From the NCBI GenBank assembly GCA_913019975.1, contig CAJWBH010000005.1:1-64000 (forward strand): 64,000 nucleotides of DNA. Direction: 5' to 3'. The notes under the pieces were generated by a model. That model did not search any database. It was not told the DNA's origin and was given only the letters and a program-made list of their open reading frames with translations. The translations under genes and the position numbers were made by a program. Below are positions 10,651 to 28,643 of the stretch, piece by piece (the first letter of the stretch is position 1; the number at the start of each line of letters is the position of its first letter). Source of the stretch: Thalassolituus maritimus (lineage in GTDB: Bacteria; Pseudomonadota; Gammaproteobacteria; Pseudomonadales; Oceanobacteraceae).

Positions 10651-10652
10651 GT

Positions 10653-10973
10653 ATGAATACACACCAAACGTCGAACGCCAATCAACGTAAAAGTGGCTGT
10701 TGCTGTGCGGGCAAGTCATCCATTTCGTCTGCGGCACCTGATACCAACAGTGTTAGCAGATCATCGCAACCCCTGCACCAATTACAAGTGCAGGGAGCCA
10801 CCTGTGGTGGTTGCGTTAAAAGTATAGAACATACTCTGAAATCCGTTTCCGGGGTCAGTGAGGCCTCTATGGATCTGGCAACCGGTGTCGCTTCAGTTGT
10901 TGGTGCAGTCGATGCAGATCATCTCGTTGAAGTATTGCAAGGCGTTGGCTTTCCAGCGGCGGTCATCCGATAA
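10653..10973 (+). CDS. Small HMA-domain metal-binding protein
   Basis: A 106-residue protein with a Cys-rich N-terminus (SGCCCAG) and one heavy-metal-associated domain whose binding loop reads GATCGGCVKSIE, ending FPAAVIR. It is probably a cytoplasmic copper chaperone for the adjacent ATPase. ATG 10653 is preferred over 10647 because GGAGG at 10641-10645 sits seven bases before it. The gene follows the regulator with almost no gap. Confidence 0.85.
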   Translation: MNTHQTSNANQRKSGCCCAGKSSISSAAPDTNSVSRSSQPLHQLQVQGATCGGCVKSIEHTLKSVSGVSEASMDLATGVASVVGAVDADHLVEVLQGVGFPAAVIR

Positions 10974-11003
10974 CAGTTCTTAAGAAATAACCGGGAGTAG
11001 GGT

Positions 11004-13349: not shown

Positions 13350-13386
13350 TGGCTATTTCGTCAGAAACTTGTTTAGGAGAGTGGAC

Positions 13387-13740
13387 ATGTTAATCATTAA
13401 TAGTGTTGGCGTTGTTGTGATCGCGCTCATTATATGGTGGTTTTGGTTGTACAAGCCCAAAGAGGCAGAGCTGGGTGAAAATGATCTGGTGATTACCGTG
13501 GAAAATGGCACCTATTCACCCTCCCGAATTAAAGTGCCTGCGGGTGAGCCGGTTGAGCTGAAGTTCATACGTAAAGATGAATCACCCTGCTCAGAAACGT
13601 TACTGATTCCCGAACTGCAAATCAGTGACACCTTGCCCCTCAATAAACTGAAGTCCATACAACTACCTGCACTGAAATCTGGTGAATACGCCTTTCATTG
13701 TCAGATGCAGATGTATCGCGGTCAGCTCACGGTGAATTAG
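13387..13740 (+). CDS. Membrane-anchored cupredoxin-like protein
   Basis: A 117-residue protein with an N-terminal membrane helix (IINSVGVVVIALIIWWFWLY) and a cupredoxin fold: ENGTYSPSRIKVPAGEPVELKFIRKDESPC and, near the end, GEYAFHCQMQMYRGQLTV, which supplies Cys, His and Met ligands typical of type-1 or related copper sites. It would face the periplasm and could bind or shuttle copper. Start 13387 follows GGAGAG and is preferred over in-frame starts inside the ATPase gene. It lies 37 bases after the ATPase stop and may share its transcript. Confidence 0.82.
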   Translation: MLIINSVGVVVIALIIWWFWLYKPKEAELGENDLVITVENGTYSPSRIKVPAGEPVELKFIRKDESPCSETLLIPELQISDTLPLNKLKSIQLPALKSGEYAFHCQMQMYRGQLTVN

Positions 13741-13777
13741 AGAATGTTCAACAAAGAAAGTAAGGATTGATATCAGT

Positions 13778-14116
13778 ATGAATATTCAAAAAGTGACCGC
13801 CATTTTTGACGAATTTCGTTTGAAGGACGTAGAAGAAGCACTGATTAGGCATGGGGTTAAAGGCTTCACCCTGCATCCGGTTCGCGGTCGTGGAGAATAC
13901 TTCGACAGCTTCAACGAGAATCATTTGATTAAGCACATTCAAATGGAGATTTACGCCAGGTCAGAGCATGCAAATAACATCGCGCAACTGATTGTAGAAA
14001 CGGCGCACGTCAATGCCGATAGCGAAGGGCTGGTTTGTATTATTCCGGTGAATGACTTGCTTTGGATTCATGATAAACGCAGTGCGATAGACAGCGATTT
14101 TCAATTTCATCCGTGA
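13778..14116 (+). CDS. P-II-like signalling protein
   Basis: A 112-residue protein resembling the GlnB/P-II fold: beta-alpha-beta start MNIQKVTAIFDEFRLKDVEEAL, a T-loop region VRGRGEYFDSFNENHL, and a second half ending DLLWIHDKRSA. The uridylylated tyrosine motif of canonical GlnB is not conserved. P-II-like proteins next to metal transporters are a recurring association whose role is not settled. It precedes the DUF2933 gene, overlapping its upstream ATG but not the chosen start. Confidence 0.75.
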   Translation: MNIQKVTAIFDEFRLKDVEEALIRHGVKGFTLHPVRGRGEYFDSFNENHLIKHIQMEIYARSEHANNIAQLIVETAHVNADSEGLVCIIPVNDLLWIHDKRSAIDSDFQFHP

Positions 14117-14124
14117 GGTGTGAT

Positions 14125-14439
14125 ATGGCAACGCAAAAAACATCATTCTGGTTAACACCCAAAGGACTGGCGGCATTGGGCCTAATTGGTGCTGCCACGT
14201 ATTTTCTGCTGATCGAACACCGCCAGCATGTCTGGCAGTTTTTACCTTTTCTGATTTTGCTGGCATGTCCTTTTATGCATCTTTTCATGCATGGAGGTCA
14301 TGGTGGCCACGGGGGGCATGGTGGGAGCCATCAGCGCCAGGGAGAAGGCCATCAGCATGAGGGTGAGTCAGATCAAGATGCTTACCAGCGTGGATTAGAA
14401 GATGGGCGCCGGGATAGCGAACATCGGCACCACCATTGA
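14125..14439 (+). CDS. DUF2933 small membrane protein with His/Gly-rich tail
   Basis: A 104-residue protein with two predicted membrane helices (GLAALGLIGAATYFLLI; FLPFLILLACPFMHLFM) followed by repeated HGG units and a His/Asp-rich end (HRHHH). This is the layout of DUF2933 proteins, common in copper islands but of unknown function. The exposed His-rich tail could bind metal. ATG 14125 is the natural start after GAGGTG. Confidence 0.8.
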   Translation: MATQKTSFWLTPKGLAALGLIGAATYFLLIEHRQHVWQFLPFLILLACPFMHLFMHGGHGGHGGHGGSHQRQGEGHQHEGESDQDAYQRGLEDGRRDSEHRHHH

Positions 14440-14465
14440 CCCGGTAGAAAACAGGAGAACGACAA

Positions 14466-15119
14466 ATGCACGGTGATTCAGCTTATGGTCTCTGGACACT
14501 GGTGATACTGAATTCGGCAATATTTATTTTCTTTGCCTTCAGTTTTGCCAAGCCACAAACAAAAACCGACTGGCGCAGTTTTGGGGCTTTCTCTGCGTTC
14601 ATTATTGCGCTCTTTACCGAGATGTATGGATTTCCGCTGACGATATATTTTCTGTCTGGATGGCTGGCGGAAAAGTACCCAGGAGTGGACTTCCTCTCCC
14701 ATGAAAATGGCCATTTACTGCACACCATGCTCGGGTTTGAAGGTGATCCGCACTTTGATCCGCTGCATATTGCCAGCAATGTACTAATCGTGCTCGGCTT
14801 CTTTCTGCTCGCGTCGGCGTGGAACGTGCTCCACAAAGCGCAACAAACTCACTCCCTGGCGACCACTGGTTGGTATGCCCGCTGCCGTCACCCGCAATAC
14901 ATTGCTTTTATCATGATTATGTTTGGCTTTCTGTTGCAGTGGCCGACCCTGCCGACATTGGTCATGTTCCCGATATTGGTCGTTGTCTATGTACGACTGG
15001 CCAAGCGTGAAGAGCGTATGGCGATTGAGGAATTTGGCGACGTGTATCTTCGCTATATGGAGTCGACCCCAGGGTGGGTACCTAAATTTTCTACCGATAA
15101 AGCCGCTTCAAACTATTGA
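14466..15119 (+). CDS. Isoprenylcysteine methyltransferase-family membrane protein
   Basis: A 217-residue protein with about five membrane helices and the ICMT/PEMT-like signature GWYARCRHPQYIAFIMIMFGF, then RLAKREERMAIEEFGDVYLRYMESTPGWVP. Members methylate prenyl-cysteine in eukaryotes; the bacterial substrate in metal islands is not known. It follows the DUF2933 gene by 26 bases, suggesting one operon. Confidence 0.8.
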   Translation: MHGDSAYGLWTLVILNSAIFIFFAFSFAKPQTKTDWRSFGAFSAFIIALFTEMYGFPLTIYFLSGWLAEKYPGVDFLSHENGHLLHTMLGFEGDPHFDPLHIASNVLIVLGFFLLASAWNVLHKAQQTHSLATTGWYARCRHPQYIAFIMIMFGFLLQWPTLPTLVMFPILVVVYVRLAKREERMAIEEFGDVYLRYMESTPGWVPKFSTDKAASNY

Positions 15120-15129
15120 GGATATACCA

Positions 15130-15585
15130 ATGAAACGTAATTCTATCAGAACTATGATTTCCGCCGTCGTTATTGCTACGGCAATAGCTTCACCAGTATT
15201 TGCAGAAAATGCGCATGATCACGGTGATAAAAACCAAGGCGCTAACAATGGCATGATGATGGGGATGATGAATCATGATCAGATGATGGCGATGCATGAT
15301 CATATGAAAAAAATGCATGCCCTGATGTCAGAAATCAAAACCGAAACCGACCCAGAAAAACGTCAACAATTAATGAATGAGCATATGCAAACTATGCAAG
15401 AAGGTATGCAGATGATGAATATGGGGAACGGCATGAAAGGCGGTAAGAAAATGGACAAAATGGATATCACAAAACGTATGGATATGATGGAAAAACACAT
15501 GGGGATGATGCAAAAAATGATGGGGCAAATGATGGACCATGAATCAGAGACGAAAAAATCACCGGTGCATAAACACAAAAAATAA
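15130..15585 (+). CDS. Met/His-rich periplasmic protein
   Basis: A 151-residue protein with a signal peptide (MKRNSIRTMISAVVIATAIA, cut after VFA) and a mature part of which about a quarter is methionine, in clusters such as NGMMMGMMNHDQMMAMHDHMKKM and MEKHMGMMQKMMGQMM. Such Met/His clusters bind Cu(I)/Ag(I) in the periplasm. Start 15130 is supported by GAGGATAT just upstream. It comes 10 bases after the ICMT-like gene. Confidence 0.8.
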   Translation: MKRNSIRTMISAVVIATAIASPVFAENAHDHGDKNQGANNGMMMGMMNHDQMMAMHDHMKKMHALMSEIKTETDPEKRQQLMNEHMQTMQEGMQMMNMGNGMKGGKKMDKMDITKRMDMMEKHMGMMQKMMGQMMDHESETKKSPVHKHKK

Positions 15586-15618
15586 GTTGTTGGATTATTT
15601 AAGAAAGGTACAGGGCCG

Positions 15619-15966
15619 ATGAGCGAACATCGATCAGGCATTAACCCGGGATTTGTCACCAGACATACCCTGAGTCTATACGGATTAGATAAGCATAATG
15701 CACCGTTGATTGTTCACGACATCGGCGATCTTCCCTACATAGATAGAGTAAAACTTATTGAGGCGAAACAAATGCTCACCGTCGCCTACGACGCCTCTCA
15801 CCATTCTATTGACGATATGATTGCTATCGTCGAAAAGCATGGGGCGTCGATCAAAGACAATTGGTGGAGTCGCGTCAAACTCGGCTGGCAACGTCAGACT
15901 GATCAAAACGTTAAAGATAACGCCAAACATGAGCCGCACTGCTGTAACAAAATGCCGCATAGGTAA
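15619..15966 (+). CDS. Small HMA-like-fold protein lacking CxxC (paralogue 1)
   Basis: A 115-residue protein of unrecognised function. Its core (TLSLYGLDKHNAPLIV...LTVAYDASHHSIDDMIAIVEKHG) has the beta-alpha-beta-beta-alpha-beta spacing of heavy-metal-associated domains but no CxxC loop. The C-terminus WWSRVKLGWQRQTDQNVKDN then H-E-P-H-C-C could bind metal. It is a clear paralogue of the next gene (shared VAYDAS/LAYDAS, EKHG/AKHG, NWW/DWW, DQN-KDN-HEP). Both stand directly before the AMP-phosphorylase-like gene. Confidence 0.7.
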   Translation: MSEHRSGINPGFVTRHTLSLYGLDKHNAPLIVHDIGDLPYIDRVKLIEAKQMLTVAYDASHHSIDDMIAIVEKHGASIKDNWWSRVKLGWQRQTDQNVKDNAKHEPHCCNKMPHR

Positions 15967-15985
15967 TAGGTAAAGGAGACTGGAG

Positions 15986-16351
15986 ATGAAAAACACTGAG
16001 CACCGATTGGGTGTGTCCGAAGTCAATCTTGTTGTCCGTCATTTGAAGCTAGACACAAAAAGCGTAGGCGGCATCCAGGATGCATTGTCAGAAATCGACA
16101 AACTATATGGACTGGATGCGGTGTCTTTCGATGAAAAGTCACAGGTTTTGAATCTCGCCTACGATGCGTCACGTCTTTGCCTGGATGGTATCGAGGATGT
16201 GTTGGCTAAACACGGTATCGAGGTTGGTCACGACTGGTGGACGCATTTTAAAGAAGGATATTATAAATTCGTGGATCAAAACATAAAAGATAACTCGGAG
16301 CATGAGCCATGGAGTTGTCACAAGTCACCGCCACGCAACAGGCGAAAATAG
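15986..16351 (+). CDS. Small HMA-like-fold protein lacking CxxC (paralogue 2)
   Basis: A 121-residue paralogue of the preceding protein: EVNLVVRHLKLDTKS, LNLAYDASRLCLDGIEDVLAKHG, DWWTHFKEGYYKFVDQNIKDNSEHEP. It has the same ferredoxin-like layout without a CxxC loop, and its end keeps a Cys (WSCHK). GGAG precedes ATG 15986. The stop is three bases before the chosen start of the AMP-phosphorylase-like gene, so translation is probably coupled. Function unknown. Confidence 0.7.
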   Translation: MKNTEHRLGVSEVNLVVRHLKLDTKSVGGIQDALSEIDKLYGLDAVSFDEKSQVLNLAYDASRLCLDGIEDVLAKHGIEVGHDWWTHFKEGYYKFVDQNIKDNSEHEPWSCHKSPPRNRRK

Positions 16352-16353
16352 CA

Positions 16354-17877
16354 ATGACGGTGAAAACGATGGAGTCAGCAAACGCTCTTAAGGTTATTGA
16401 TATAGGTATCGATACCCACCAAGAACCCGTCCTTTATATGCGAAACGATTGCCATATCTGCCGCTCGGAAGGTTTTACAGCTAACAGTCGCGTTTCAGTG
16501 GAAGATGGCCAAAACCAAATAATCGCAACGATCAACGTGGTGGATGAGAAGGTCATTGAACCAGGCAGCGCTGGTTTATCCAAAATCGCCATCGAACGGC
16601 TGGGAGTTACCGCAGGGGCATTGATTAGCGTCAGTCATGCACCGGTGGTGACATCGCTGGCGGCTGTTCGCAAAAAAATATTTGGCCATAAGCTCAGCGA
16701 CGAGGAAGTCACTGAGATCGTACAGGACATCAGCGACCATCGTTATTCCGATATCGAAATTGCCAGTTTTCTCAGCGTTTGTGCGGGTAGTCGTCTGGAT
16801 GTGGATGAAATCATTGCCTTGACACAGGCCATGGTGGCTTGCGGTAAGCGTCTCAGCTGGCCCGATTCACCCGTGGTGCTGGATAAGCATTGCATTGGTG
16901 GCCTGCCGGGCAATCGCACCACGCCGCTGGTGGTGGCGATCGTCAGCGCAGCAGGTTTAACCATTCCGAAAACCTCGTCTCGCGCCATTACGTCACCGGC
17001 GGGTACGGCTGACACTATGGAGGTGCTGACGACCGTCAATCTCAGCCTTGCGGATATTCAACGAGTTGTAGCAGAAACTCACGGTTGTCTCGCCTGGGGT
17101 GGAGCGGTGAATCTTAGCCCCGCCGATGATTTATTGATTCGGATTGAGCGCGCGCTGGATCTTGATGGCGAAGGGCAGTTGATTGCATCGGTTTTGTCGA
17201 AAAAAATCGCTGCGGGTTCTACCCATGCGGTGATTGATATCCCTGTCGGCCCTACTGCAAAAGTGCGTTCGCAAAAAGATGCCGATCGCCTCGCTTCACT
17301 ATTTACACAGGTTGGTGCTGCGTGCGGCCTTCAGGTTCGTTGCCTGATAACGGATGGCAGTCAGCCCGTCGGGCGCGGTGTTGGTCCAGTAGAGGAAGCC
17401 CGCGATGTAATTGCTGTTTTGCGGCGCAGCAGCGATGCGCCCGAGGACCTTCGAGAGCGGGCACTGTTTTTGGCTGCCCATCTGTTTTCTCTGGCGTATC
17501 AGCAAACCTATGAACAAGGTTTGCAAAAGACTACCGAAATTCTTGATAGCGGTGCAGCGTGGGAACAATTTCAGAGAATTATAGCGGCCCAGGGCGGGAT
17601 GAAACCTTTGCCTTCTGCAGATTTTCAACATACGGAAACTGCCGCATCAACCGGCACTTTGCAGACGATTGATAATCGCCAATTAGCGCGCTTGGCGAAA
17701 CTGGCGGGAGCGCCCAATGTCTCGGCAGCGGGTTTGCGCTTGCATAAGCGTGTCGGTGAAACTGTAGAGCGAGGTGAACCCTTGTTCACACTGTTCAGTG
17801 ACACAGAAGGCGAGCTGCAATACGCATTGGCCTATTACCGACAATCCAACATTTTCACGATTGGAGCAATCTCATGA
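16354..17877 (+). CDS. AMP phosphorylase / thymidine phosphorylase-family protein
   Basis: A 507-residue protein (522 if begun at ATG 16309, inside the upstream gene). It has the N-terminal extension of archaeal AMP phosphorylases and the signature DKHCIGGLPGNRTT, which resembles the AMP-enzyme form rather than the DKHSTGGVGD of thymidine phosphorylase. ITSPAGTADTMEVL and GGAVNLSPADDLLIRIE follow. AMP phosphorylase releases the base from NMPs to give ribose 1,5-bisphosphate. The next gene is PRPP-synthetase-like, overlapping by four bases, so a pathway from nucleotide to ribose phosphate is likely. No ribose-1,5-bisphosphate isomerase or RuBisCO is seen here. Confidence 0.85.
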   Translation: MTVKTMESANALKVIDIGIDTHQEPVLYMRNDCHICRSEGFTANSRVSVEDGQNQIIATINVVDEKVIEPGSAGLSKIAIERLGVTAGALISVSHAPVVTSLAAVRKKIFGHKLSDEEVTEIVQDISDHRYSDIEIASFLSVCAGSRLDVDEIIALTQAMVACGKRLSWPDSPVVLDKHCIGGLPGNRTTPLVVAIVSAAGLTIPKTSSRAITSPAGTADTMEVLTTVNLSLADIQRVVAETHGCLAWGGAVNLSPADDLLIRIERALDLDGEGQLIASVLSKKIAAGSTHAVIDIPVGPTAKVRSQKDADRLASLFTQVGAACGLQVRCLITDGSQPVGRGVGPVEEARDVIAVLRRSSDAPEDLRERALFLAAHLFSLAYQQTYEQGLQKTTEILDSGAAWEQFQRIIAAQGGMKPLPSADFQHTETAASTGTLQTIDNRQLARLAKLAGAPNVSAAGLRLHKRVGETVERGEPLFTLFSDTEGELQYALAYYRQSNIFTIGAIS

Positions 17878-18815
17878 GTGAACTGAACCCGGTTTCAGGA
17901 AAGACACCGTTGGTGTTTTGCTTACACGATCACCCATTGGCGGATTCGTTAGCAAAGGCGATGGGTGTGCAGCGGGGAGAATTTAGTGCACGTCAATTCC
18001 CCGATGGTGAATCCTATTTGCGTATCACCTCTGATGTGGAAGGCCGTGCCTGTATTGTTGTGGCGGATTTGTCGCACCCCAACACCAAGTATCTACCGTT
18101 ACTGTTTTTGGTCGAAACATTGCGGGAACTGGGTGCTTCCCAAGTGGGTTTAGTGACACCCTACCTAAGCTATATGCGCCAGGATCGCCGATTTGTTGAC
18201 GGCGAGGCGGTTACGTCACGTATTTTTGCCAAGTGCCTTTCTCAGCATATGGATTGGTTGGTCACTGTAGATCCGCATCTGCATCGCTATCACTCTCTGG
18301 ACGAAATTTATTCCGTGCCCAGTTCTGTGGTACAAGGTGCTCCTGCCTTAGCTGAATGGTTAAAAACACAAAACAATTTGTTGTTAGTAGGACCGGATAG
18401 CGAGAGTGAGCAATGGGTTTCCAGTATTGCTGATTATAGCCAGCACCCGTTTGTCATTGGTGAGAAGCAACGCTTCGGTGATCGTCATGTTGAAGTGTCC
18501 TTGCCTAACATTGATGCGTACAGAGAGAGAACCGCCGTCATTATTGATGATGTGATATCGAGCGGGCAGACTATTCTGGAATGTATCAAAACTCTTAAAT
18601 CCAAGGGCATTAATCACATTCAATGTGTTGCCGTTCACGGTATTTTTGCTGATGGGTCTGATGAAGCACTGATCCATGCCGGACTAAGCCAATTAGCAAC
18701 TGCCAACACCATTCCCCATTCATCCAATGCCATTGATATCACGCCGCAGTTGATGGAAGCCGTTATTTCCATGCTACAAGCCGCAAGATTGGGTTCCACA
18801 GGAGCAGTCTTATGA
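17874..18815 (+). CDS. Ribose-phosphate pyrophosphokinase-family protein
   Basis: A 313-residue PRPP-synthetase-like protein. It has FSARQFPDGESYLRI near the start, the flexible loop MRQDRRFVDGEAVTSRIFAK, VTVDPHLHRYHSL and the PRPP-binding loop VIIDDVISSGQTI near residue 225. The usual enzyme moves pyrophosphate from ATP to ribose 5-phosphate. Given the AMP-phosphorylase-like gene it overlaps, it may instead, or also, handle ribose bisphosphate; this is inference. It differs from housekeeping Prs in several loops and is likely a specialised paralogue. Confidence 0.85.
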   Translation: MSELNPVSGKTPLVFCLHDHPLADSLAKAMGVQRGEFSARQFPDGESYLRITSDVEGRACIVVADLSHPNTKYLPLLFLVETLRELGASQVGLVTPYLSYMRQDRRFVDGEAVTSRIFAKCLSQHMDWLVTVDPHLHRYHSLDEIYSVPSSVVQGAPALAEWLKTQNNLLLVGPDSESEQWVSSIADYSQHPFVIGEKQRFGDRHVEVSLPNIDAYRERTAVIIDDVISSGQTILECIKTLKSKGINHIQCVAVHGIFADGSDEALIHAGLSQLATANTIPHSSNAIDITPQLMEAVISMLQAARLGSTGAVL

Positions 18816-20167
18816 GAATTACATTTTTAGGCGGTGCCGAAACCGTAACCGGTTCAAAATTTCTACTGGAAACCGAGCGCAGCAAGGTGCTGATCGACTG
18901 TGGCCTGTACCAAGGCTACAAATGGTTGCGTGAGCGCAACTGGCAACCGCTGCCGCTGGATATCGATAAGCTCGATGCCGTGTTGCTCACTCATGCGCAC
19001 CTGGATCACTCCGGCTATATCCCCGCCTTATACAAGCACGGTTTTCGTGGCCCGGTGTTTACCCATCACGCCACCAAAGACCTGTGTCAGATCCTGTTGG
19101 CCGACAGCGGTCATATTCAGGAGGAGGACGCGAAATACTACAGCAAACATAAGCTGAGCAAACATGAACAACCCGAGCCGCTCTATGACCGTCAAACCGC
19201 CGAATCGAGTATGAAGTTGTTTCAGTCGGTTGACTTTGATGAACAGGTTGAGGTGGGTGATATTCGTTTTCACCTGCAACCGGCGGGACATATTCTCGGT
19301 GCCGCCAGTATCATTATTGAAGCGGAAGGCAAACGCATTGGCTTTTCAGGCGATGTGGGCCGTTTCGATGACGTGTTGATGAAACCACCGCGCCCGCTGC
19401 CCGAACTGGATTTGTTGCTGATGGAGTCCACTTACGGCAATCGGCAGCACGATCCGCAGGACGCTGCGCAACAATTGGCTGCCGTGGTTAACCGTGTTGC
19501 TAAAAACGGTGGGGTTTTACTGGTGCCCGCGTTTGCCGTGGGGCGGGCGCAGGCCTTGCAACATTTGCTGGCAACGCTGATGCAAGAGGGTGCCATACCC
19601 AAACTGCCGATCTATCTCGACAGTCCCATGGCCATCAAAGTGTCGGATATTTTTTGTCATCACAGCGATCAGCATCGACTCAGCCATGAGCAATGTCATC
19701 ACATGTGCGATGTCGTCACTTATACCCGTACCGTCGATGAATCCAAGGCGCTAGCGGGGCAGGCTTTCCCCCATATCATTATTGCCGGCAGCGGTATGGC
19801 CACCGGTGGGCGAATTCTTCACCACTTTAAACGGCTATTGAGTGATAGCCGAACCACGGTGCTGTTTACCGGTTACCAGGCCGGTGGAACCCGTGGTGCC
19901 AAGATGCTTGAAGGTGTCGATGCGGTGAAAATCCACGGTAGCTGGATTCCACTACGGGCAGAGGTGGAGGTGATTTCCGGGCTCTCGGGGCATGCGGACT
20001 ATCTCGAACTCACTGAATGGTTGCACCAATCAAAATTGGCAAGCACAACGCCGATCAAACTGATTCATGGTGATCCTGAAGCCTTGGAAGGCTTGCGCGT
20101 GCATTTGCAGGAGCAAACGGAGTTTAAGGTCGACGTTGCCGGGTATCGGGATATCTTGCGCCTGTAA
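18812..20167 (+). CDS. Metallo-beta-lactamase/beta-CASP ribonuclease-like protein
   Basis: A 451-residue protein. The metal site motif THAHLDHSGYIP lies near residue 57, followed by AGHILGAASI, SGDVGRFDD, the beta-CASP domain with PAFAVGRAQALQHLLA, and the C-terminal RMMBL region with SGLSGHADYLEL. Members (YSH1/CPSF-type and bacterial relatives) cleave RNA; a 5'-3' or endonuclease activity is expected. It overlaps the PRPP-synthetase-like gene by four bases, so it is translated with the nucleotide genes. It could feed nucleotides from RNA to them. Confidence 0.88.
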   Translation: MRITFLGGAETVTGSKFLLETERSKVLIDCGLYQGYKWLRERNWQPLPLDIDKLDAVLLTHAHLDHSGYIPALYKHGFRGPVFTHHATKDLCQILLADSGHIQEEDAKYYSKHKLSKHEQPEPLYDRQTAESSMKLFQSVDFDEQVEVGDIRFHLQPAGHILGAASIIIEAEGKRIGFSGDVGRFDDVLMKPPRPLPELDLLLMESTYGNRQHDPQDAAQQLAAVVNRVAKNGGVLLVPAFAVGRAQALQHLLATLMQEGAIPKLPIYLDSPMAIKVSDIFCHHSDQHRLSHEQCHHMCDVVTYTRTVDESKALAGQAFPHIIIAGSGMATGGRILHHFKRLLSDSRTTVLFTGYQAGGTRGAKMLEGVDAVKIHGSWIPLRAEVEVISGLSGHADYLELTEWLHQSKLASTTPIKLIHGDPEALEGLRVHLQEQTEFKVDVAGYRDILRL

Positions 20168-20230
20168 CCCTTGTCCCCGTGATCCTGCACCAATCGAAAC
20201 AAGAGAACCAAGATAGTAGAGGAAAAGATC

Positions 20231-20689
20231 ATGCAAATTGAAACCCTGAAAGATGTGTTGCACTGGACCAAAGAGTTTCACCAACACCTGAACCAGTGCT
20301 TGTCCCACTGCGCGGATAAAAACACTGACGAGCGGGCGCGAATGATACTGGCTTATCTCTCCGAGCACGAAAAAACGCTGACCGACGTGGTAAGCGGTTT
20401 TGAAAAGTCCGGAGATGAACATGCCCTCAATACCTGGTGTTATGAATACGTCGAACATCATCCGATTACCCGGCACGCTCATTGTGATGCCCCCTTTGCC
20501 GAACTGGATGCCGCGCAGATTATGGAAGTGATCATTGATCAGCACCAGCAGGTCATCGAGTTGTATCGCTATCTAGCGTCACGGGCGGACATTCCGTCGG
20601 CTAAGGAATTGTTGGAGACCTTGCGTTCGCTGGAGGAACACGAAGTGATGCGCATGGCGCAATCGTCCAATCGGTTTGGTGATTTATAG
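20231..20689 (+). CDS. Helical-bundle protein with hemerythrin/ferritin-like Glu/His pattern
   Basis: A 152-residue all-helical protein with His, Glu and Cys spaced on helices: FHQHLNQCLSHC, LSEHEKTL, EHHPITRHAHC, DQHQQVIELY, SLEEHEVMRMA. This is reminiscent of hemerythrin or rubrerythrin-like di-metal bundles, but I cannot identify an exact family. GAGGAAAAG precedes ATG 20231. It sits in the carbon/nucleotide module and may be an iron or oxygen-stress protein; that is inference. Confidence 0.6.
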   Translation: MQIETLKDVLHWTKEFHQHLNQCLSHCADKNTDERARMILAYLSEHEKTLTDVVSGFEKSGDEHALNTWCYEYVEHHPITRHAHCDAPFAELDAAQIMEVIIDQHQQVIELYRYLASRADIPSAKELLETLRSLEEHEVMRMAQSSNRFGDL

Positions 20690-20723
20690 ACAGGTAAATA
20701 CACATGATAGAAGGAGCACCGGT

Positions 20724-20981
20724 ATGAAACTGCATGCCTTTAAATTTGGTCTGGCCTGCTCAATCAGTGCCATTGTGCTTTGGGTCATTTGCAGTGTCTT
20801 CGTCGCGGCGATGCCCGCAATGATGATGTCCATGTCCGGCGACATGGTGCATATGCAGTTGCAGGATATGGGGTGGCACCTAACCCTGGTCGGCGCACTT
20901 TGGGGGTTGGTGGCCTGGGCTGTGGTGGCTGGTTTTTCCGGGTGGTTGCTTGCCACTATTTACAACCGCTTGCTGGCCTGA
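20724..20981 (+). CDS. DUF5676-like small membrane protein
   Basis: An 85-residue protein with two membrane helices (GLACSISAIVLWVICSVFVAA; LVGALWGLVAWAVVAGFSGWLLATIYN) linked by a Met-rich loop. It matches the layout of DUF5676 proteins often seen in metal and stress islands. Start 20724 follows AGAAGGAG. Function unknown. It lies directly before the acetate kinase remnant. Confidence 0.7.
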   Translation: MKLHAFKFGLACSISAIVLWVICSVFVAAMPAMMMSMSGDMVHMQLQDMGWHLTLVGALWGLVAWAVVAGFSGWLLATIYNRLLA

Positions 20982-21002
20982 ACCAGGGTGCAAGCGTCTG
21001 TT

Positions 21003-21608
21003 ATGCCTGTTTTTTTTCAGTCCTCAACCCTGACAGTTCCAGCATTAAGTGGGCGACATTTTCTAATGGATACTTCCATGGGATTTACGCCCAATGAGGG
21101 GCTGTTAATGCGTACGCGCAGCGGTGATGTTGATCCAGGTTTGCTGGCCTGGTTACAAAAGCAGGAAGGATGGTCGCCTGAAGATACGGATAAACTGCTT
21201 AATCAGGAATCCGGTTGGCGGGGGTTGTCTGGTGGTGTTGATAATATGGCTGAACTATTTACCAGTGACCACCCACAGTGCCATCTGGCATTTGAGCTGT
21301 TTCGATACCGCTTCCAGAAAACATTGGGGGCTTACTTTGCGATTTTAGGTGGCCTGGACGGTATTGTGCTCAGCGGCGGTGTTGCCGAACATAATCCGGC
21401 TCTTTGCCAAGAGCTCTTGTTGGGGTTATCCCATTTGGGCGTTGAATTGCACGCTGAATCGGCCAACAGCAACCTGCCGATAGAGCTTTCCTCAATGACA
21501 TCAAAAGTGCAGTGCTGGGTAGTTGCCTCGGATGAGGCGGCGATGATGCTACTCGCAGTCCAGCAGCATTTTCCCAACGAATTTAGCAATCAGCCAGTCG
21601 CTGACTGA
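21003..21608 (+). pseudogene. ackA: Acetate kinase remnant with large internal deletion
   Basis: The frame open from 21003 to 21608 has the C-terminal half of acetate kinase: DTSMGFTPNEGLLMRTRSGDVDPG, FRYRFQKTLGAYFAILGG, DGIVLSGGVAEHNP. In a different frame just upstream (21017-21073) lies the enzyme's N-terminus, SVLNPDSSSIKWATF, matching the LVLNxGSSSxK phosphate motif. Adding one T to the T8 run after ATGCCTG would join ATG 21003 to it. About 170 central residues, including part of the active site, are missing. No functional enzyme is expected. Intact acetate kinase would pair with the phosphoketolase gene that follows nine bases later. Confidence 0.85.
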
Positions 21609-21617
21609 GGCATAGCC

Positions 21618-23984
21618 ATGTATGTGATAGACCAACAAAACGATCACCGTATTGAACAACGAGCCAGGATGTATCGCGAGACTTACCCAGCGTTTGCTCA
21701 TTGGGCAAACGGTTACGGGGTGATACAGCACAGCGATGAAACACAGGTACGCATATTTGATCTGTGCCAGCAACTGGTGTGTGAGGGGCGCTTCAAACAG
21801 ATTGATGAGGTTCTGGAGATTTTGTCGGCTACCGACCGGCTGACCAGTGCGGCCATGTGGTTGGTGGTGCATATGACTTATAGCACCAAAGTGGATTTTT
21901 CCGGTAGCGCACTCGACGCTGAAGATTTTAAAGCCAATCCACAGGGGCATACCGGTGGCTCCCTGAATATGGTGCCTGCCTATGTCGCTTACATGGTGGC
22001 TAACCACCTGGCGGGAATCACACGAAGCTGGTTGATGGGTCAGGGCCACTGTGTGGCGGCCATCGACGCGGTCAATGTGTTACTGCAAAACCTCTATCCG
22101 GAACAGGCGGAGCGCTACCCCCTAAGTGATGAAGGTCTATCGCAATTGGCGCAGGATTTTTACAGCTACGCGATTACGGATGATGGTCGCCCGGGTGTCC
22201 CATTAGGCAGTCATGTCAATCCACACACGGCGGGCGGTTTGATTGAAGGTGGCTACCTGGGTTTTGCTGAGCTGCAATACGTGCACATGCCTCTCCCCGG
22301 TGAGCGCCTGGTGGCTTTCCTGAGTGACGGTGCGTTTGAAGAACAGCGCGGCAGTGATTGGGCCAGCCGTTGGTGGCGCGCCGAGGATTGTGGTCTGGTA
22401 ACACCGGTGATGATCGCCAATGGCCGGCGTATTGATCAGCGTTCCACCATGTACCAGCAGGGCGGCCTGACCTGGTTTTACGAACATCTGGAGCAGAATG
22501 ATTTTCATCCGATCGCCATCGACGGGCGCGATCCTGCTGCGTTTATCTGGGGAATATTTGAATCAGAAGCGCGCTTGCAAGCCTGCAGCGCACATATTCG
22601 TGCAGGAAAAATGTGTTATCCGGTTAAACTGCCGTACCTGATTGCCGAAACGGAAAAAGGCTACGGTTTTTACGGTGCTGGCACCAATGCAGCCCACGGC
22701 ACGTCTTTGCCCGGCAACCCTCGTAGCGATGCCGCGGCTCGGCAGCTATTCAATGAACACGCTGCCAGGCTCTTTCTGCCGCGTACTGAGCTGACCAGTG
22801 CAATCGAAAAAATAACACAACATAAGGCAGATAACCGGGTACCGGAAAAATACCATGCGCTCGGTCAGCGTGATGTCGTTTTAAAACTACCTACTGCTTC
22901 ACCACAGTGCGAAAAGGGGCAAGCATTGTCACCCATGGCAGCCGTAGATAAGCGCTTGTGTGAGTGGCATCTCGCCAATCCGGGCGTGCGCGTACGTATC
23001 GGCAACCCTGATGAGCTACGCAGTAACCGCATGGGCCAAACGCTGGACCTTCTCAAACACCGGGTGTTAAACCCGGAAGACGGTGTGGCCGAGTCGATAC
23101 AAGGGGCTGTCATTACCGCTCTGAATGAGGAGGCCGTAGTGAGTGCGGCACTGGCGAATAAAGGTGGTATGAACCTGGTGGTCAGCTATGAAGCCTTTGC
23201 CATGAAAATGATTGGTGCCTTGCGGCAGGAAATCATTTTTGCGCGGCACCAAAAAGAACTGAATCGACATCCGCGCTGGTTATCGTTGCCGGTTATCGCT
23301 ACTTCGCATTTGTGGGAGAACGGCAAAAATGAGCAATCGCATCAGGATTCCGCTTTTGGAGAAGTGTTGTTGGGTGAAATGAGCGATATGGCACGGGTGG
23401 TATATCCCGCCGATGCCAACAGTGCGGTTGCCTGTCTCGATTCCTGCTACCAGAGTCAGGGTCAGATTTGGGCCATGACCATACCTAAGCAGGAAATCAT
23501 TTCTTCTTTCAGTCCTGACCAAGCTCAGCAGTTAGTGGATTGTGGCGCGTTGACGTTGGAAGAGGATGACAGGGTTGATGTGCAATTAGTGGCAATGGGT
23601 GCTTATCAGCTCCATGTTTGTCGTGAGGTTGGTGAACGTCTCAGAGAAAAAAGCATTGGCTGCCGTATTACTTATTTGCTTGAACCTGGCCGTTTTCGTA
23701 TTCCGCGCGACAGGCACGAACAGTCATTCGTTAGCAGTCCTTCACAGCAGGCACTGCTCTTTAATGATGCGATTCACTTGCGCGTTTTTGTATCCCATAT
23801 GCGACCTGAAGTTCTGTTAGGTGTATGTCGACCACTGGACTTGGGCCGTGATCGCTGCCTGGCATTTGGTTATCGAAACCGCGGTGGCACATTGGATACG
23901 CAGGGCTTGCTGGAGGCAAATCAATGTAACGCCCGGTTCATTGTGGCAGAAACTTTGAAAAAGATGAGTTTAGGAGAAGGTTGA
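21618..23984 (+). CDS. xfp: Phosphoketolase
   Basis: A 788-residue thiamine-diphosphate enzyme of normal family length. Features include GHTGGSLNMVPAYVAYMVAN, GQGHCVAAIDAVNVLL, SHVNPHTAGGLIEGGYLGFAEL, DGAFEEQRGSDWA and, in the second half, YEAFAMKMIGALRQ. It splits xylulose 5-phosphate (and perhaps fructose 6-phosphate) with phosphate into acetyl phosphate and a shorter sugar phosphate. The companion acetate kinase upstream is destroyed, so acetyl phosphate would have to be used by a kinase or transacetylase elsewhere in the genome. The permease gene starts inside its stop codon. Confidence 0.93.
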   Translation: MYVIDQQNDHRIEQRARMYRETYPAFAHWANGYGVIQHSDETQVRIFDLCQQLVCEGRFKQIDEVLEILSATDRLTSAAMWLVVHMTYSTKVDFSGSALDAEDFKANPQGHTGGSLNMVPAYVAYMVANHLAGITRSWLMGQGHCVAAIDAVNVLLQNLYPEQAERYPLSDEGLSQLAQDFYSYAITDDGRPGVPLGSHVNPHTAGGLIEGGYLGFAELQYVHMPLPGERLVAFLSDGAFEEQRGSDWASRWWRAEDCGLVTPVMIANGRRIDQRSTMYQQGGLTWFYEHLEQNDFHPIAIDGRDPAAFIWGIFESEARLQACSAHIRAGKMCYPVKLPYLIAETEKGYGFYGAGTNAAHGTSLPGNPRSDAAARQLFNEHAARLFLPRTELTSAIEKITQHKADNRVPEKYHALGQRDVVLKLPTASPQCEKGQALSPMAAVDKRLCEWHLANPGVRVRIGNPDELRSNRMGQTLDLLKHRVLNPEDGVAESIQGAVITALNEEAVVSAALANKGGMNLVVSYEAFAMKMIGALRQEIIFARHQKELNRHPRWLSLPVIATSHLWENGKNEQSHQDSAFGEVLLGEMSDMARVVYPADANSAVACLDSCYQSQGQIWAMTIPKQEIISSFSPDQAQQLVDCGALTLEEDDRVDVQLVAMGAYQLHVCREVGERLREKSIGCRITYLLEPGRFRIPRDRHEQSFVSSPSQQALLFNDAIHLRVFVSHMRPEVLLGVCRPLDLGRDRCLAFGYRNRGGTLDTQGLLEANQCNARFIVAETLKKMSLGEG

Positions 23985-25333
23985 TGGATAAAGATGGTCG
24001 CACAACACACTACGATAAAGATAGTCTGACGCTCTCCGGTACTGTGATGCTGGGCACCGGTGTGATGATAGGGGCAGGTATTTTTGCGCTGACTGGGCAA
24101 ATGGCGGAAATGGTGGGCGTACTGTTCCCGCTGGCATTTCTGGCAGCAGCGGTGGTCGTTTCTTTCAGTGCCTACTCTTACGTCAAAATTTCCAATGCCT
24201 ACCCTTCCGCCGGAGGGATAGGGATGTATTTACACAAGGCTTATGGCGACAGCTTACCGACGGCATTCAATGCACTGTTGATGTACTTCTCCATGGTGAT
24301 TGCACAGAGCTTCCTGGCGCGGACTTTTGGCTCCTATACCATGCAATTATTCGGTGGTGATGAATCCGGGCGAACGGTGGCGATGCTGGGTGTGGGGCTG
24401 ATTATTTTTGCGTTTATCGTCAATTTGTTGAGTAACCGCTTTATTCAAAAGGTAGCTGGGTTTATCGGGGTGTTAAAGATTGGCGGCATTTTGGTGTTCG
24501 GCATTATCGGTGTGTGGGTGGCCGATAGCCTGGCGCTAGATTTCGGTCACACGGATAACGTTGAAACCTCCGGAAATTTTCTTGGTGCTACCGCTCTCGG
24601 GATTCTGGCTTTTAAAGGTTTTACCACCATTACCAACAGTGGATCCGAGGTAATCGATCCTAAGCGAAATGTTGGAAGAGCTATCGTTATCTCTATTGTT
24701 GCGTGTGTAGTCATCTACACCCTGGTTGGCTTTTCAGTGGCCAGTAACCTATCCCTGAGTGAAATCATAGATACTCGCGATTATTCCCTGGCAGCGGCTG
24801 CGCGACCAGCGCTTGGAGAATACGGAGTATGGTTTACAGTCGCAATTGCCATGACGGCAACTGCGGGCGGCATTCTTGCCAGTATTTTTGCGGTGTCCCG
24901 GATGCTGGCCATGTTGACCGAAATGAAACTGGTTCCTCATCGCCATTTCGGTATGCCGGGAAGCATCCAAAAACATACACTTGTCTATACCGTGGTACTC
25001 GGTATTTTTCTTACGGCCTTTTTTGACCTGTCGCGGATAGCCGCCCTGGGTATTGTCTTTTATCTGGTCATGGACATTGCTATTCATTGGGGCGTGATTC
25101 GTTATTTGGCGGATGATATTAAAGCCAAGCGCTGGGTGCCCATTGTAGCCATTATTTTCGATTTTCTGGCTTTGATCGGTTTCGTTTGGGTGAAACTGAA
25201 CGCTGACCCGTGGGTTATCGGCATTGCCCTTATCGCGATGTTACTGATCGCAGTGGGAGAGAGGTGGTTCCTGCATTCGAATAGACGGCAACGACTACTA
25301 CACGAAGACGGTAAGCACCAGCGTCAGCATTGA
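23984..25333 (+). CDS. APC-superfamily amino acid permease
   Basis: A 449-residue protein with about twelve membrane helices. The N-terminal LSGTVMLGTGVMIGAGIFALTGQMAE has the GxGIGxGIF-like motif of the amino acid-polyamine-organocation family, followed by AYPSAGGIGMYLHKA. The substrate is unknown. ATG 23984 overlaps the phosphoketolase stop by one base, so they are probably co-expressed. This permease is intact, in contrast to the related broken gene at 26285. Confidence 0.85.
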   Translation: MDKDGRTTHYDKDSLTLSGTVMLGTGVMIGAGIFALTGQMAEMVGVLFPLAFLAAAVVVSFSAYSYVKISNAYPSAGGIGMYLHKAYGDSLPTAFNALLMYFSMVIAQSFLARTFGSYTMQLFGGDESGRTVAMLGVGLIIFAFIVNLLSNRFIQKVAGFIGVLKIGGILVFGIIGVWVADSLALDFGHTDNVETSGNFLGATALGILAFKGFTTITNSGSEVIDPKRNVGRAIVISIVACVVIYTLVGFSVASNLSLSEIIDTRDYSLAAAARPALGEYGVWFTVAIAMTATAGGILASIFAVSRMLAMLTEMKLVPHRHFGMPGSIQKHTLVYTVVLGIFLTAFFDLSRIAALGIVFYLVMDIAIHWGVIRYLADDIKAKRWVPIVAIIFDFLALIGFVWVKLNADPWVIGIALIAMLLIAVGERWFLHSNRRQRLLHEDGKHQRQH

Positions 25334-25486
25334 TGTCTGCTGTTCAAATTTAAACATCAGGTGGTTAAGTGGCGGAAAAGCGCATGAATGAACCTAATGA
25401 AACTAAGCATCGGCTTCTTATTTACGCACTCCCCTATTTATTAGTAAACATCAGCAGATGGTGGAGTATTAGAGAAGGTGAGGCCA

Positions 25487-25993
25487 ATGAGCAAACGTGA
25501 ATTCACAATACATTGTCCCGTATGTCAAATGACAAAAATAGATCGATCTTTGTCGCTCAAATATCAGGGCGTCGATCACTACTTTTGTTCATCTCAGTGT
25601 CTAGAGCGATTTAAAGAGCACCCTCACCTGTTTGTGGGCGACCCCAAACATGGCTTGTCGCCAAAGCAAAAGGGACAGGCGGCACTGAAAACACGTCGCA
25701 TTGGTTTCGCTGAGGCTGTTGGCGACGAACTTAAAGCCACACTGGATCAATCCCTGTTGTCTCTTATGGGGGTAGAAGCACTCAGATTTGAGGGGCACTG
25801 CCTTTACGTGAGTTACGATCTTTTTCAAGTTTCCTTGGAGGAAATCGAAGCAACTATCGAGCAAACTGCGGCAAAGCTACATTCCGGTATGTTGGAGCGG
25901 GTAAAACGCGGATTTATTCATTACAGCGAGGAGTGTGAACTTGATAATCTCGCGCATCCCGGCGGGGACGGTAGCTGCCACGGAGGAAGTTGA
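25487..25993 (+). CDS. YHS/TRASH-type metal-binding protein with HMA-like C-terminus (paralogue 3)
   Basis: A 168-residue protein. Residues 1-45 form a YHS-like zinc/copper site: HCPVCQM and YFCSSQCLERFKEHP. The C-terminal part (LMGVEALRFEGHCLYVSYDLFQVSLEEIEATIEQ, then MLERVKRGFIHYSEECELDNLAHP, ending CHGGS) follows the same pattern as the two proteins at 15619 and 15986, so it looks like a YHS domain fused to that family. ATG 25487 is preceded by GAAGGTGAGG. Likely cytoplasmic metal binding; exact role unknown. Confidence 0.7.
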   Translation: MSKREFTIHCPVCQMTKIDRSLSLKYQGVDHYFCSSQCLERFKEHPHLFVGDPKHGLSPKQKGQAALKTRRIGFAEAVGDELKATLDQSLLSLMGVEALRFEGHCLYVSYDLFQVSLEEIEATIEQTAAKLHSGMLERVKRGFIHYSEECELDNLAHPGGDGSCHGGS

Positions 25994-26284
25994 AAGTAAA
26001 ACAAAATATGAATTCAGTCCGTTTTACTTCGCTGTCTCGCTATGGGTGTGATGCCGTCACTAATGGTTGGCGATGAAATCTGTTAGCCCTTGGTATAGAG
26101 AATCTTAGGGGTTGATCTTCAATATACCTATATCGCGTGCACCCCTGTTTAAAGAGAATTTGGCTTCTTCTCTTTAACGTGAAAATACGGGGTAAAAATT
26201 TATATTTCGACACCGATTGCTGAAATGATGGTGATATTACAGATGCTGTCAACAAATCAAGTCAACCGTCCATAATGGAGGTCA

Positions 26285-27482
26285 ATGTCTAATTTTGTTT
26301 TACCTGGTGTGGCACTAGTCGCGGTGGTAGTTTTATTTCTGCTGAGGGTACGCAATGCCACTCTTTGGCGGGCTACGGTAACACCACTGGCGTCAATAAT
26401 CGTCAGTGGTTTTTTGATTTCCGGGCCGTTACTAAGTCATGTTGTGGCGGCGTAGCCTCCGGTTGCGATGCTGGGGATTCTCCTGGTGGCGTTTGCTATC
26501 GGCGCTGTGATCCGTTTCAACATTACTCATGCCGAGCCACTGCTTGCCGATGTCGGGCATTCCCACGTCGTTAAACCGTTACAACACCTGTCAGATCTCG
26601 CCCTGGGATTTGCTTATATTGTTTCAGTTACTTTCTATGTTCGCTTGCTGGCGTCTTTTGTGTTGCGTTTTGGCGGTCATCGTGATGCGGTGATCGAAAA
26701 TGTTCTGACCACGGTCGTGTTGTTGTTTATTGCCATCGTGGGTTGGAAAAATGGAAGAAGCCGCGGTGGCGATCAAGCTGGCCATCATCGCTGCATTGCT
26801 GATCGGTCTGTTCGGGTTCGATTGGCATTGGCTCGCCAGTGATCAAACGCTTATCGATCCGAACGAAAATCTTACAGTGATGGAACGTCTCAGACTGTTG
26901 GCGGGATTACTGCTGATTGTACAGGGATTCGAAACATCGCGTTACCTGGGAAATGCCTATGATCCCGCCATGCGAGTGCGATCAATGCGGCTGGCGCAAC
27001 TCATCGCCGGCGTTATTTATCTGCTGTTTGTGATTACGGGGCTACCTTTGTTGATGGAGTTTCATGGTATTGCCGATGAAACGGCGATTATTACCCTGGC
27101 GGGTCGTGTTGCCGAAATATTGCCCGCGCTATTGATACTGGCGGCGGTGATGAGTCGATTCAGTGCTGCCGTTGCCGACACAGTGGGGGCCGGTGGATTG
27201 TTCACTGAGCTGAGCGGTAGCCGACTTTCATCTCGACTGGGCTATATCGGTCTTGTGGCGGTAGCGATCTTGTTGGTTTGGACCGGTAATGTGTTTGATA
27301 TTGTGACATTGGCATCGCGTGTGTTTGCGGCGTACTACCTGTTGCAGTGCCTGGTGGCAATAGCGGCTACTTTTAGGGCTGTCCGGTTAACCGGAGTACA
27401 GTGCGTGATTCTATTAACGTCATTTTCGGCGATGGCGATGATGTTGGCTCTGATAGTGGTGTTCGCTATCCCGGTAGGTTGA
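26285..27482 (+). pseudogene. APC-type permease gene broken by a stop and a frameshift
   Basis: The frame from ATG 26285 gives an N-terminal membrane segment and hits TAG at 26453. It resumes in the same frame (PPVAMLGILLVAFAIGAV) and is lost again near 26748, where GGTTGGAAAAATGGAAG continues in another frame as MEEAAVAIKLAIIAALL up to 27482. Removing one A from the five-A run would restore a continuous protein of about 400 residues with repeated membrane helices and QGFETSRYLG. It resembles amino acid permeases, but the family is less certain than for the intact neighbour. The A-run lesion could be a sequencing error; the TAG is less easily explained that way. Confidence 0.75.
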
Positions 27483-27803: not shown

Positions 27804-28577
27804 TTAACGTAACATCTTCTTATCGGTTAAAAGTTTTTCGTTAAACGGATATACGGTGCCTGAATCCGGCTTCATCAAGTGCTGATCTTTATCAGGACAA
27901 TCTACAATCGATAACAAATGTCGGATGACATTAAGACGAGCGCACTTTTTATTATTGGCTTTGACGATATACCAGGGGGCATGATCGCTATGGCTATGCT
28001 GTAGCATTTTGTCACGGGCAAGGGAGTAATCGTCCCAGTGCTCGATAGCTGTAGTATCAATTGGGCTGATCTTCCACTGTTTTAATGGATTAATTCGTCG
28101 ATCATCTAATCTACTTTGCTGTTCATCCCGCGATATATCGAGATAGTATTTGATAATTTGGATACCTGTATCGCAAAGCATCTTTTCAAACGGTACGACC
28201 GCTTTCATAAATTGCTTATATTCTTTTTCCGAGCAAAAGCCCATGACTTTTTCCACACCCGCGCGGTTATACCAGCTGCGATTCATCAGGACCATTTCCT
28301 GCCGACTTGGCAGGTGGGCTGAGTAACGTTGGAAGTACCAGCTATTGGTATCGCGCTCAGAGGGTTTTCCCAGGGCGACGACTCGCGTTTCCCTCGGGCT
28401 TAGATGCTCAGTGATTCGCTTGATGACACCATCTTTACCGGCGGCATCCCGGCCCTCAAATATGACCAGCAGTTGCAGGTCGTTTTTGATAATGTGCCGC
28501 TGAAGTTTAACGAGTTGTATTTGGAGCTCTCTGAGTTCTGTTTTATAGGATGGCTTTTTCTTCGCTGAACTTGTCAT
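27804..28577 (-). CDS. ppk2: Polyphosphate kinase 2 family protein
   Basis: A 257-residue protein with Walker A GRDAAGKDG, DTNSWYFQRYSAHLPS and the lid/Walker B region NRSWYNRAGVEKVMGF, then YYLDISRDEQQSRLDDR. These are standard for class I PPK2 enzymes, which phosphorylate nucleoside diphosphates with polyphosphate. In this island it could supply ATP or other nucleotides to the metal pumps and to the nucleotide genes; that is inference. It is the first gene of the minus-strand half of the island. Confidence 0.92.
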   Translation of the reverse strand: MTSSAKKKPSYKTELRELQIQLVKLQRHIIKNDLQLLVIFEGRDAAGKDGVIKRITEHLSPRETRVVALGKPSERDTNSWYFQRYSAHLPSRQEMVLMNRSWYNRAGVEKVMGFCSEKEYKQFMKAVVPFEKMLCDTGIQIIKYYLDISRDEQQSRLDDRRINPLKQWKISPIDTTAIEHWDDYSLARDKMLQHSHSDHAPWYIVKANNKKCARLNVIRHLLSIVDCPDKDQHLMKPDSGTVYPFNEKLLTDKKMLR

Positions 28578-28643
28578 CACATCACCTTGTTAGTAAATCG
28601 ATTCAGCCTGTCATACAGGTAGATTATCCGATTTCATATTTCC

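Follow-up and report, generated by a model that had tools for sequence, protein, structure and literature searches.

In Thermococcus kodakarensis, the archaeal pentose bisphosphate pathway, or nucleoside monophosphate (NMP) shunt, comprises the NMP phosphorylase TK0352, ribose 1,5-bisphosphate (R15P) isomerase and RuBisCO; in the passages cited here, its entry enzyme takes AMP, CMP and UMP as substrates and forms R15P (PMC9700705). The same passages describe a bacterial use of R15P, its conversion to phosphoribosyl pyrophosphate (PRPP) through PhnN in Escherichia coli. A homologue of the archaeal entry enzyme, AMPp, is encoded in a stretch of 64,000 nucleotides of Thalassolituus maritimus (contig CAJWBH010000005.1, positions 1 to 64,000; hereafter the window), which lies on contig C5 of a 3.49 Mb host genome in 34 contigs. 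There it forms part of a co-directional run of genes that begins with copper export. The reading put forward here, with a probability of about one half, is that AMPp belongs to a mobile low-oxygen module that salvages nucleotide ribose and phosphate-bond energy, has an optional phosphoketolase outlet and is joined at this locus to copper export.

AMPp is homologous to the archaeal entry enzyme, shares its active-site motif and presumably forms the same product, but the surrounding genes differ. R15P isomerase above the TIGR00511 cut-off was found neither in the host nor in any of 33 isolate genomes carrying the module (0/33; sub-cut-off relatives in 10/33), these genomes being those of 33 of the 80 loci described below, hand-picked as named isolates. 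RuBisCO (PF00016) has no match in the host genome. The sequence-only reading, which had noticed that neither enzyme follows AMPp, thus holds for the whole host. Instead, the module includes a PRPP-synthetase homologue (PRS) and sometimes a phosphoketolase (XFP), and it resides on mobile elements of bacteria. PRS belongs to a protein family other than that of PhnN, for which the best host match reaches 51 bits against a cut-off of 156. The possibility of a hidden host R15P isomerase was rejected: the only strong relative is MtnA-like and stands among what we take to be methionine-salvage genes (ORFs read by eye).

A second parallel is found in Bradyrhizobium diazoefficiens, where bll3117-bll3116-bll3115 bear the same names as three genes of the window, in the same order, and are microoxia-induced and FixK2-linked, and where bll2518-bll2517 combines a phosphoketolase with an acetate kinase, as in the window (PMC6515984; PMC9104804). 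The cited passages treat these as two separate predicted operons and do not present them as one pathway, whereas the window has a single run that includes copper genes. The setting is that of CusCBA/CopA copper-resistance islands; the window differs in having genes of energy metabolism within the copper run, which an FNR-type box precedes. In the literature searched, limited to open-licence PMC papers, no account of the module as a single system was found; new here are the FNR-type boxes before the run, the Bradyrhizobium low-oxygen parallel, the enrichment of CopA and a changed loop in PRS.

The entry enzyme and its partner

Comparison across loci relies on a species collection in which at least 584 stretches matched the search pattern and at least 570 encode AMPp relatives; the best 80 were kept, and these are the nearest loci, not a random sample. 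Among the matches listed, the closest named record is L003, an Oceanospirillaceae metagenome-assembled genome (MAG). Locus counts were made by tblastn, and counts of numbered families by rough ORF clustering, which is unreliable in high-GC loci. The isolates include near copies (L032/L033/L034/L038 and L036/L037).

AMPp (16354-17877; all genes of the run are on the + strand) occupies an ORF that opens at 16309, with a probable start at the ATG at 16354; the TIGR03327 profile matches it from residue 27 on, and the N-terminal domain of the solved archaeal enzyme is thereby present. The protein scores above PRK04350 (674.3 vs 434) and TIGR02645 (606.7 vs 434.6), type 2 models named "putative thymidine phosphorylase". 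This name, which is also found in plasmid annotations, would point to thymidine or pyrimidine catabolism. Such a role is very improbable and was rejected as the leading explanation, given the scores and the active-site motif: AMPp falls below all DeoA/PyNP models (NF004490, TIGR02644, NF004747 and TIGR02643; for example 206.8 vs 269 and 148.5 vs 570.7), and its nearest solved structures are 4ga5/4ga6 (E 2.6e-103), with pyrimidine nucleoside phosphorylase (PyNP) at E 1e-40. Entries 4ga4-4ga6 are, we assume, the T. kodakarensis AMP phosphorylase. With 4ga5 the protein shares the motifs PGN[KR]T and SSRAITSxAGTADxxEV, and it differs from the SGRGLGHTGGTIDKLEA of PyNP. Each position of SSRAITSPAGTADTME is kept in 77-78 of 81 aligned AMPp rows, the misses probably coming from three mis-cut rows; in the longer motif, conservation holds through the E and the final V varies. 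Judged by sequence, AMPp is far closer to AMP phosphorylase than to thymidine phosphorylase, as the sequence-only reading had proposed.

PRS (17874-18815) exceeds the cut-off of the PRK07199 subfamily (365.5 vs 322). Its gene overlaps AMPp and the following beta-CASP gene by exactly four bases each (ATGA at 17874 and 18812), as had been described from the sequence. PRS lies directly downstream of AMPp in 65 of the 79 loci with room for it and somewhere in 73 of 80; among 66 adjacent pairs, a four-base overlap is possible in 38 and the gap exceeds 30 bases in 10.

This adjacency bears on whether unrelated stress cargo has simply gathered in a metal-resistance element, its gene order having no pathway meaning. 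Hitch-hiking of this kind would fit the many unrelated genes in the islands, the near-identical copies that mark recent block spread (L031-L034, L038 and L039; L035-L037) and the 14 of 79 loci where PRS is not directly downstream (including Acidobacteriota L016 and Myxococcota L019). It is unlikely all the same, given that AMPp and PRS remain neighbours, in many cases with overlapping ends, across Pseudomonadota, Bacteroidota, a Planctomycetota MAG (L048) and a Chlamydiota plasmid (L090), where AMPp is about 49-58% identical to that of the window, and that the like-named Bradyrhizobium operons share FixK2 dependence in the cited passages (PMC9104804).

The window PRS and those of 72 loci are invariant in KxRxGD, DPHLHR and GPDxESxQW (73/73 aligned). 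The catalytic K and R and the PRPP loop have established roles in PRPP synthetases; KxR is present in 73/73, the D, D, S and T of the DD..S...T loop in at least 72/73, and RQD is also kept. By contrast, GPDxESxQW occupies the site of SPDIGGVVRA in the housekeeping copy of the host, APDKGA in 1u9y and APDRGA in 4twb, so that the canonical glycine-type loop (PDxGG/PDxGA), presumably the one that holds pyrophosphate, is replaced in all 73 module proteins. The housekeeping prs lies elsewhere in the host, beside an ispE-like gene (neighbour named by eye). From the alignment, this invariant change is the best lead on the fate of R15P. A more novel and improbable suggestion is that PRS may be no PRPP synthetase and may instead apply the in-line transfer of that family to R15P, catalysing R15P + AMP <-> R5P + ADP (R5P, ribose 5-phosphate), with the altered loop limiting transfer to one phosphate. 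If true, AMPp and PRS together would convert NMP to R5P in bacteria with neither ATP nor RuBisCO, phosphoketolase would carry the route on to acetyl phosphate, and this route would serve a mobile element for survival of copper and low oxygen.

Candidate low-oxygen control of the run

The window contains two matches to the strict FNR pattern (TTGAY-N4-RTCAA), and both lie in the gap before the MerR-family regulator with which the run opens (10240-10650). The proximal FNR/Anr-type box, TTGACTCAGATCAA (10170-10183), lies 70 bp 5' of the MerR start, and the distal one, TTGATCTGGATCAA (9962-9975), has a strict counterpart at an equal distance (278 bp) in L003 and L004; neither box is assigned to a strand. 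A TAGGAT element at 10206-10211, seen by eye and absent from the promoter scan list, would place the 10170 box near -41.5. A strict box is located 70-105 bp 5' of MerR in 9 of the 11 loci in which MerR is at least 57% identical, where the control density predicts fewer than 0.003 per 300-bp promoter. Of the two exceptions, the box of L008 stands one ORF further upstream and L040 has none. When all 16 MerR-like matches are considered, a strict box lies no more than 300 bp away in 10. The host encodes two CRP-family proteins, one of which carries CQTCSLNALC at its N-terminus and may, by this motif, be FNR-like.

In the cited passages on B. diazoefficiens, bll3117, bll3116, bll3115 and bll2518 are induced at 0.5% oxygen, with log2 protein changes of 2.1, 4.4, 2.9 and 4.3 and transcript fold changes of 5.1, 7.7, 15.4 and 8.2, respectively (PMC6515984). 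Expression is lowered in a fixK2 deletion for bll3117 (-6.6), bll3115 (-30.6), bll2518 (-10.0) and bll2517 (-10.2) (PMC9104804, Table 2); the same source gives FixK2 boxes at -74 and -89 and the predicted operons bll3117-3116-3115 and bll2518-2517. A putative phosphoketolase is also included in a predicted FixK regulon (PMC2908626). Together, the FNR-type box before the copper run and the low-oxygen control of the like-named Bradyrhizobium operon suggest a shared setting of low oxygen or energy stress, which partly answers a question that the sequence-only reading had left as unexplained, namely why these genes travel with copper genes. As a side observation, oleate hydratase adjoins the module in L084 (17770-19353) and L141 (10687-12453), and the B. 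diazoefficiens oleate hydratase gene blr1289 appears in the FixK2 list (PMC9104804).

Phosphoketolase, acetate kinase and the weighing of the module

The third overlapping gene encodes a beta-CASP metallo-hydrolase (18812-20167), whose closest solved relative is the ribonuclease TTHA0252 (6e-75). Relatives occur in 56 of 80 loci and their placement is variable: directly 5' of AMPp in 32 of the 77 loci with room, and in 10 of 60 next after PRS, which is the arrangement of the window. The gene order expected elsewhere is conserved for AMPp-PRS and varies for beta-CASP. The family relationship of this protein to Cas14, below the cut-off (373 vs 800), and the ATP-cone plus Mrr-type nuclease found beside the module, mostly in Bacteroidota, might indicate a defence or damage response in which a nuclease and phosphoribosyl enzymes sense or deplete nucleotides. 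This is highly improbable in view of the low-oxygen regulation and fermentation neighbours, and of a PADLOC scan of 10 proteins that returned just two weak matches to the PRS fold (PRTase; E 4e-4 and 8e-4).

XFP (21618-23984) exceeds the Pfam cut-offs (XFP, 144.1 vs 22; XFP_N, 46.4 vs 23.7) and falls under the NCBIfam phosphoketolase cut-off (119.6 bits vs 962); by these profile scores it is a member of a divergent phosphoketolase clade. Similar divergent proteins are found in L087 (136.8 bits) and L137 (122.6 bits), and canonical phosphoketolases near the module in L086, L088 and L090 (1328.5, 987.8 and 1474.8 bits), so that two very different clades occur near AMPp. XFP is present in 27 of 80 loci. 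Among the 13 isolate genomes with any XFP, 11 have one no further than 10 kb from AMPp by coordinates (exceptions, G014/L036 and G023/L061), or 8 of 10 with near copies counted once.

The acetate kinase of the window is a remnant. Its C-terminal part (20988-21608) covers positions 222-390 of 392 in PF00871. Open stretches of 375-400 aa are present in L004, L005, L006 and L008, and an intact host acetate kinase is located on contig C3. In Methylophaga thalassica (L143, 14703-15301), too, the annotation divides acetate kinase into two short pieces, so that loss of the gene may have occurred more than once.

Other genes of energy metabolism recur near the module. Among the 80 loci, acetate kinase (AckA) is found in 13, ATP-cone proteins in 12 and polyphosphate kinase 2 (PPK2) in 9; rough ORF clustering adds a 2-hydroxyacid dehydrogenase family in 12 loci and a type II GAPDH family in 8. 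The PPK2 of the window (27804-28580, - strand; TIGR03707, 346.5 bits vs 301.8) is a possible energy partner, and PPK2 also stands beside the module in an Acidovorax plasmid (L144, 887-1750). The ATP-cone and Mrr-type protein (L042, 5050-5904; 14 loci have family 9), which has an AF1548-like C-terminal domain, is a possible nuclease that senses adenylates. In L087, a conjugative Rhizobium plasmid, genes of the arginine deiminase pathway, adenylate kinase and Usp (3506-7850) lie near PRS-XFP-MBL-AMPp and copper genes. In L090, a plasmid from Criblamydia sequanensis, which is related to the chlamydiae, the module is accompanied by glycogen phosphorylase, an ATP-cone protein and acetate kinase (5640-15665).

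Several results weigh against a low-oxygen salvage module. The first group concerns its regulation. The boxed promoters are partly non-independent: L007 and L083 are alike, as are L036 and L037, and L003 and L004 resemble the window. Strict boxes are only about twice as dense in the 80 loci as in controls (27 in 1.48 Mb vs 7 in 0.80 Mb, p 0.05; p = 0.03 for the 33 loci), and a count of two boxes is attained in 4 of 100 shuffles of the window by itself. As density is weak as sole evidence, reliance is placed on box position before MerR. Of 16 plasmid neighbourhoods, 11 lack the strict box; since both printed Bradyrhizobium FixK2 boxes would escape the strict pattern, its absence elsewhere is compatible with such control. 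The correspondence between the Bradyrhizobium genes and the window is one of product names and gene order, not of compared sequences. Furthermore, the cited passages do not cover the genes evenly: bll3116 is not in the FixK2 passage of PMC9104804, nor bll2517 in that of PMC6515984, and the latter puts these genes outside the direct FixK2 regulon of 2008, with PMC9104804 later listing boxes. A paper on oxygen regulons in Alphaproteobacteria makes, in the passages cited, no mention of phosphoketolase, acetate kinase, phosphorylase or pyrophosphokinase (PMC4999443).

The second group concerns metabolism. AMPp is below the AMP-phosphorylase equivalog TIGR03327 (504.2 bits vs 535), and the host scans for R15P isomerase, RuBisCO and PhnN identified no R15P-consuming enzyme. 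The window acetate kinase is broken: besides its C-terminal part there is a short N-terminal trace in another frame (by eye), and the middle is gone. Among the energy neighbours, arginine deiminase genes were found by tblastn in 0/80 loci, being present only in L087, and adenylate kinase and glycogen phosphorylase in 1/80 each. Finally, XFP is absent from 20 of the 33 module genomes, which places it outside the module core, as an optional outlet. Phosphoketolase as the necessary carbon exit was accordingly an overstatement; the earlier salvage idea is supported in part, by the AMPp-PRS order and the XFP linkage.

These 20 genomes without any XFP, together with the PRPP-synthetase catalytic residues retained in PRS, would suit plain nucleotide salvage, in which AMPp and PRS would do no more than return bases and ribose phosphate to PRPP, with phosphoketolase as separate cargo for carbon overflow. 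This alternative deserves some weight but is on the whole unlikely: XFP lies beside AMPp in 11 of the 13 XFP-bearing genomes, two different clades occur in this position, and the host already owns a housekeeping prs.

Copper setting, spread and meaning of the run

The run extends from 10240 to 25993 and consists of 19 ORFs with gaps of -4 to 144 bases. It thus begins far upstream of the block, from 15619 to 25333, that had been singled out from the sequence, whose single orientation is correct. Terminator-like sites in 9800-26500 are not above chance (19 on both strands vs 16.7 in shuffles). Upstream lies CusCBA, and downstream PPK2, CopAB, CusRS and a mercury-type MerR. The copper part of the island described earlier comprises CusCBA, the CopA ATPase, CopAB and CusRS, and its mercury part amounts to one MerR above the mercury-regulator cut-off (36008-36439), the sole mercury gene examined by score.

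A CopA-type ATPase (at least 205 bits) is found in 15 of the 33 isolate loci, where 0.63 would be expected from genome-wide counts and the largest value in 200,000 simulations was 6; with near copies counted once the figure is 11 of 29, and over all loci 33 of 80. Sixteen annotated plasmid neighbourhoods were hand-picked from two match lists (168 and 120 records). Copper- or heavy-metal-named genes are present in 15 of them, weakly in L137, which has only a heavy-metal-binding-domain protein. In the exception, L086 of Sphingobium xenophagum, the neighbours of AMPp-PRS are a flavohaemoglobin, truncated haemoglobins, a phosphate acetyltransferase-like gene, AckA, alcohol dehydrogenases and Usp. 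Copper is a common carrier, but what unites these loci may be stress from low oxygen and on energy supply.

The mobility of the module is seen in a tree of 78 AMPp proteins (L006, L041 and L066, too short, were left out), which joins near-identical copies from separate families: Methylophaga with Haliea; Porticoccus with two Alcanivorax; and Hydrogenophaga, Pigmentiphaga, Achromobacter and Pseudomonas. Among 9 genomes of the genus to which the host belongs, 3 have a 98-100% copy, the host itself being one of them, and a fourth has a 55% copy; of the five without AMPp, two are less than 90% complete. AMPp has matches at E 1e-5 in 168 plasmid records, of which 110 cover at least 80% of it at a single site.

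In the 5' part of the run, MerR is ZntR/CueR/MerR-like and under every equivalog cut-off. It is followed by a CopZ-like metallochaperone (10647-10973, below the cut-off), the CopA copper-translocating P-type ATPase (11004-13349; TIGR01511, 617.3 bits vs 397), four small proteins, a Met-rich protein and two HMA-like proteins; three ATG starts in the run, at 13387, 15130 and 20724, were placed by eye. One of the small proteins is an isoprenylcysteine-methyltransferase (ICMT)-like membrane protein (14466-15119; 51.9 bits, under the cut-off of 160), whose relatives accompany the module (family 14, 11 loci). The HMA-like pair, recognised as such by eye and without Pfam or NCBIfam match, comprises a protein at 15619-15966 and its 35% identical paralogue at 15986-16351; in their alignment YDAS, W, D, N and Cys positions are invariant. 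The pair and the YHS-domain protein that ends the run (25478-25993, from a profile scan), whose C-terminal part looks similar by eye, flank the module.

In the 3' part, the genes named in the sequence-only reading are correct, and three ORFs between beta-CASP and XFP are to be added: a 152-aa protein (20231-20689), a DUF5676 two-helix membrane protein (20724-20981, profile scan from the ORF start at 20676) and the acetate kinase remnant. The 152-aa protein has invariant His and Glu positions and a predicted helical-bundle structure (pLDDT 78.7) that is weakly ferritin/Dps- and YciF-like; its identification as a hemerythrin was rejected, since Foldseek found no similar fold at E <= 0.001. XFP is followed by an APC-family permease (23984-25333; Pfam and NCBIfam profiles), and the overlap reported between the two genes is of one base if the permease starts at the ATG at 23984.

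If the run is indeed a low-oxygen salvage module behind copper export, it would respond to failing respiration, caused by low oxygen or possibly metal poisoning, with the module as its tail. The host FNR/Anr regulator would switch the run on from the 10170 box. The beta-CASP nuclease, judging from its family, would help to convert RNA to mononucleotides, and AMPp, if it acts as the characterised archaeal enzyme does, would turn NMP and phosphate into base and R15P, spending no ATP. PRS would act on the same pool of ribose phosphates and AMP, PRPP formation and C1 phosphate transfer being candidate alternatives. R5P could be converted to xylulose 5-phosphate by host isomerase and epimerase, whose presence is assumed, and phosphoketolase would split the latter into acetyl phosphate and glyceraldehyde 3-phosphate. 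ATP would come from acetate kinase, here from the intact copy on contig C3.

The module is a widespread mobile bacterial gene set that contains a homologue of the archaeal entry enzyme without its known next steps, and it bears on R15P metabolism in bacteria. It also offers a possible reason for the presence of energy genes in copper islands, in that copper export and energy supply may switch on jointly when oxygen runs out.

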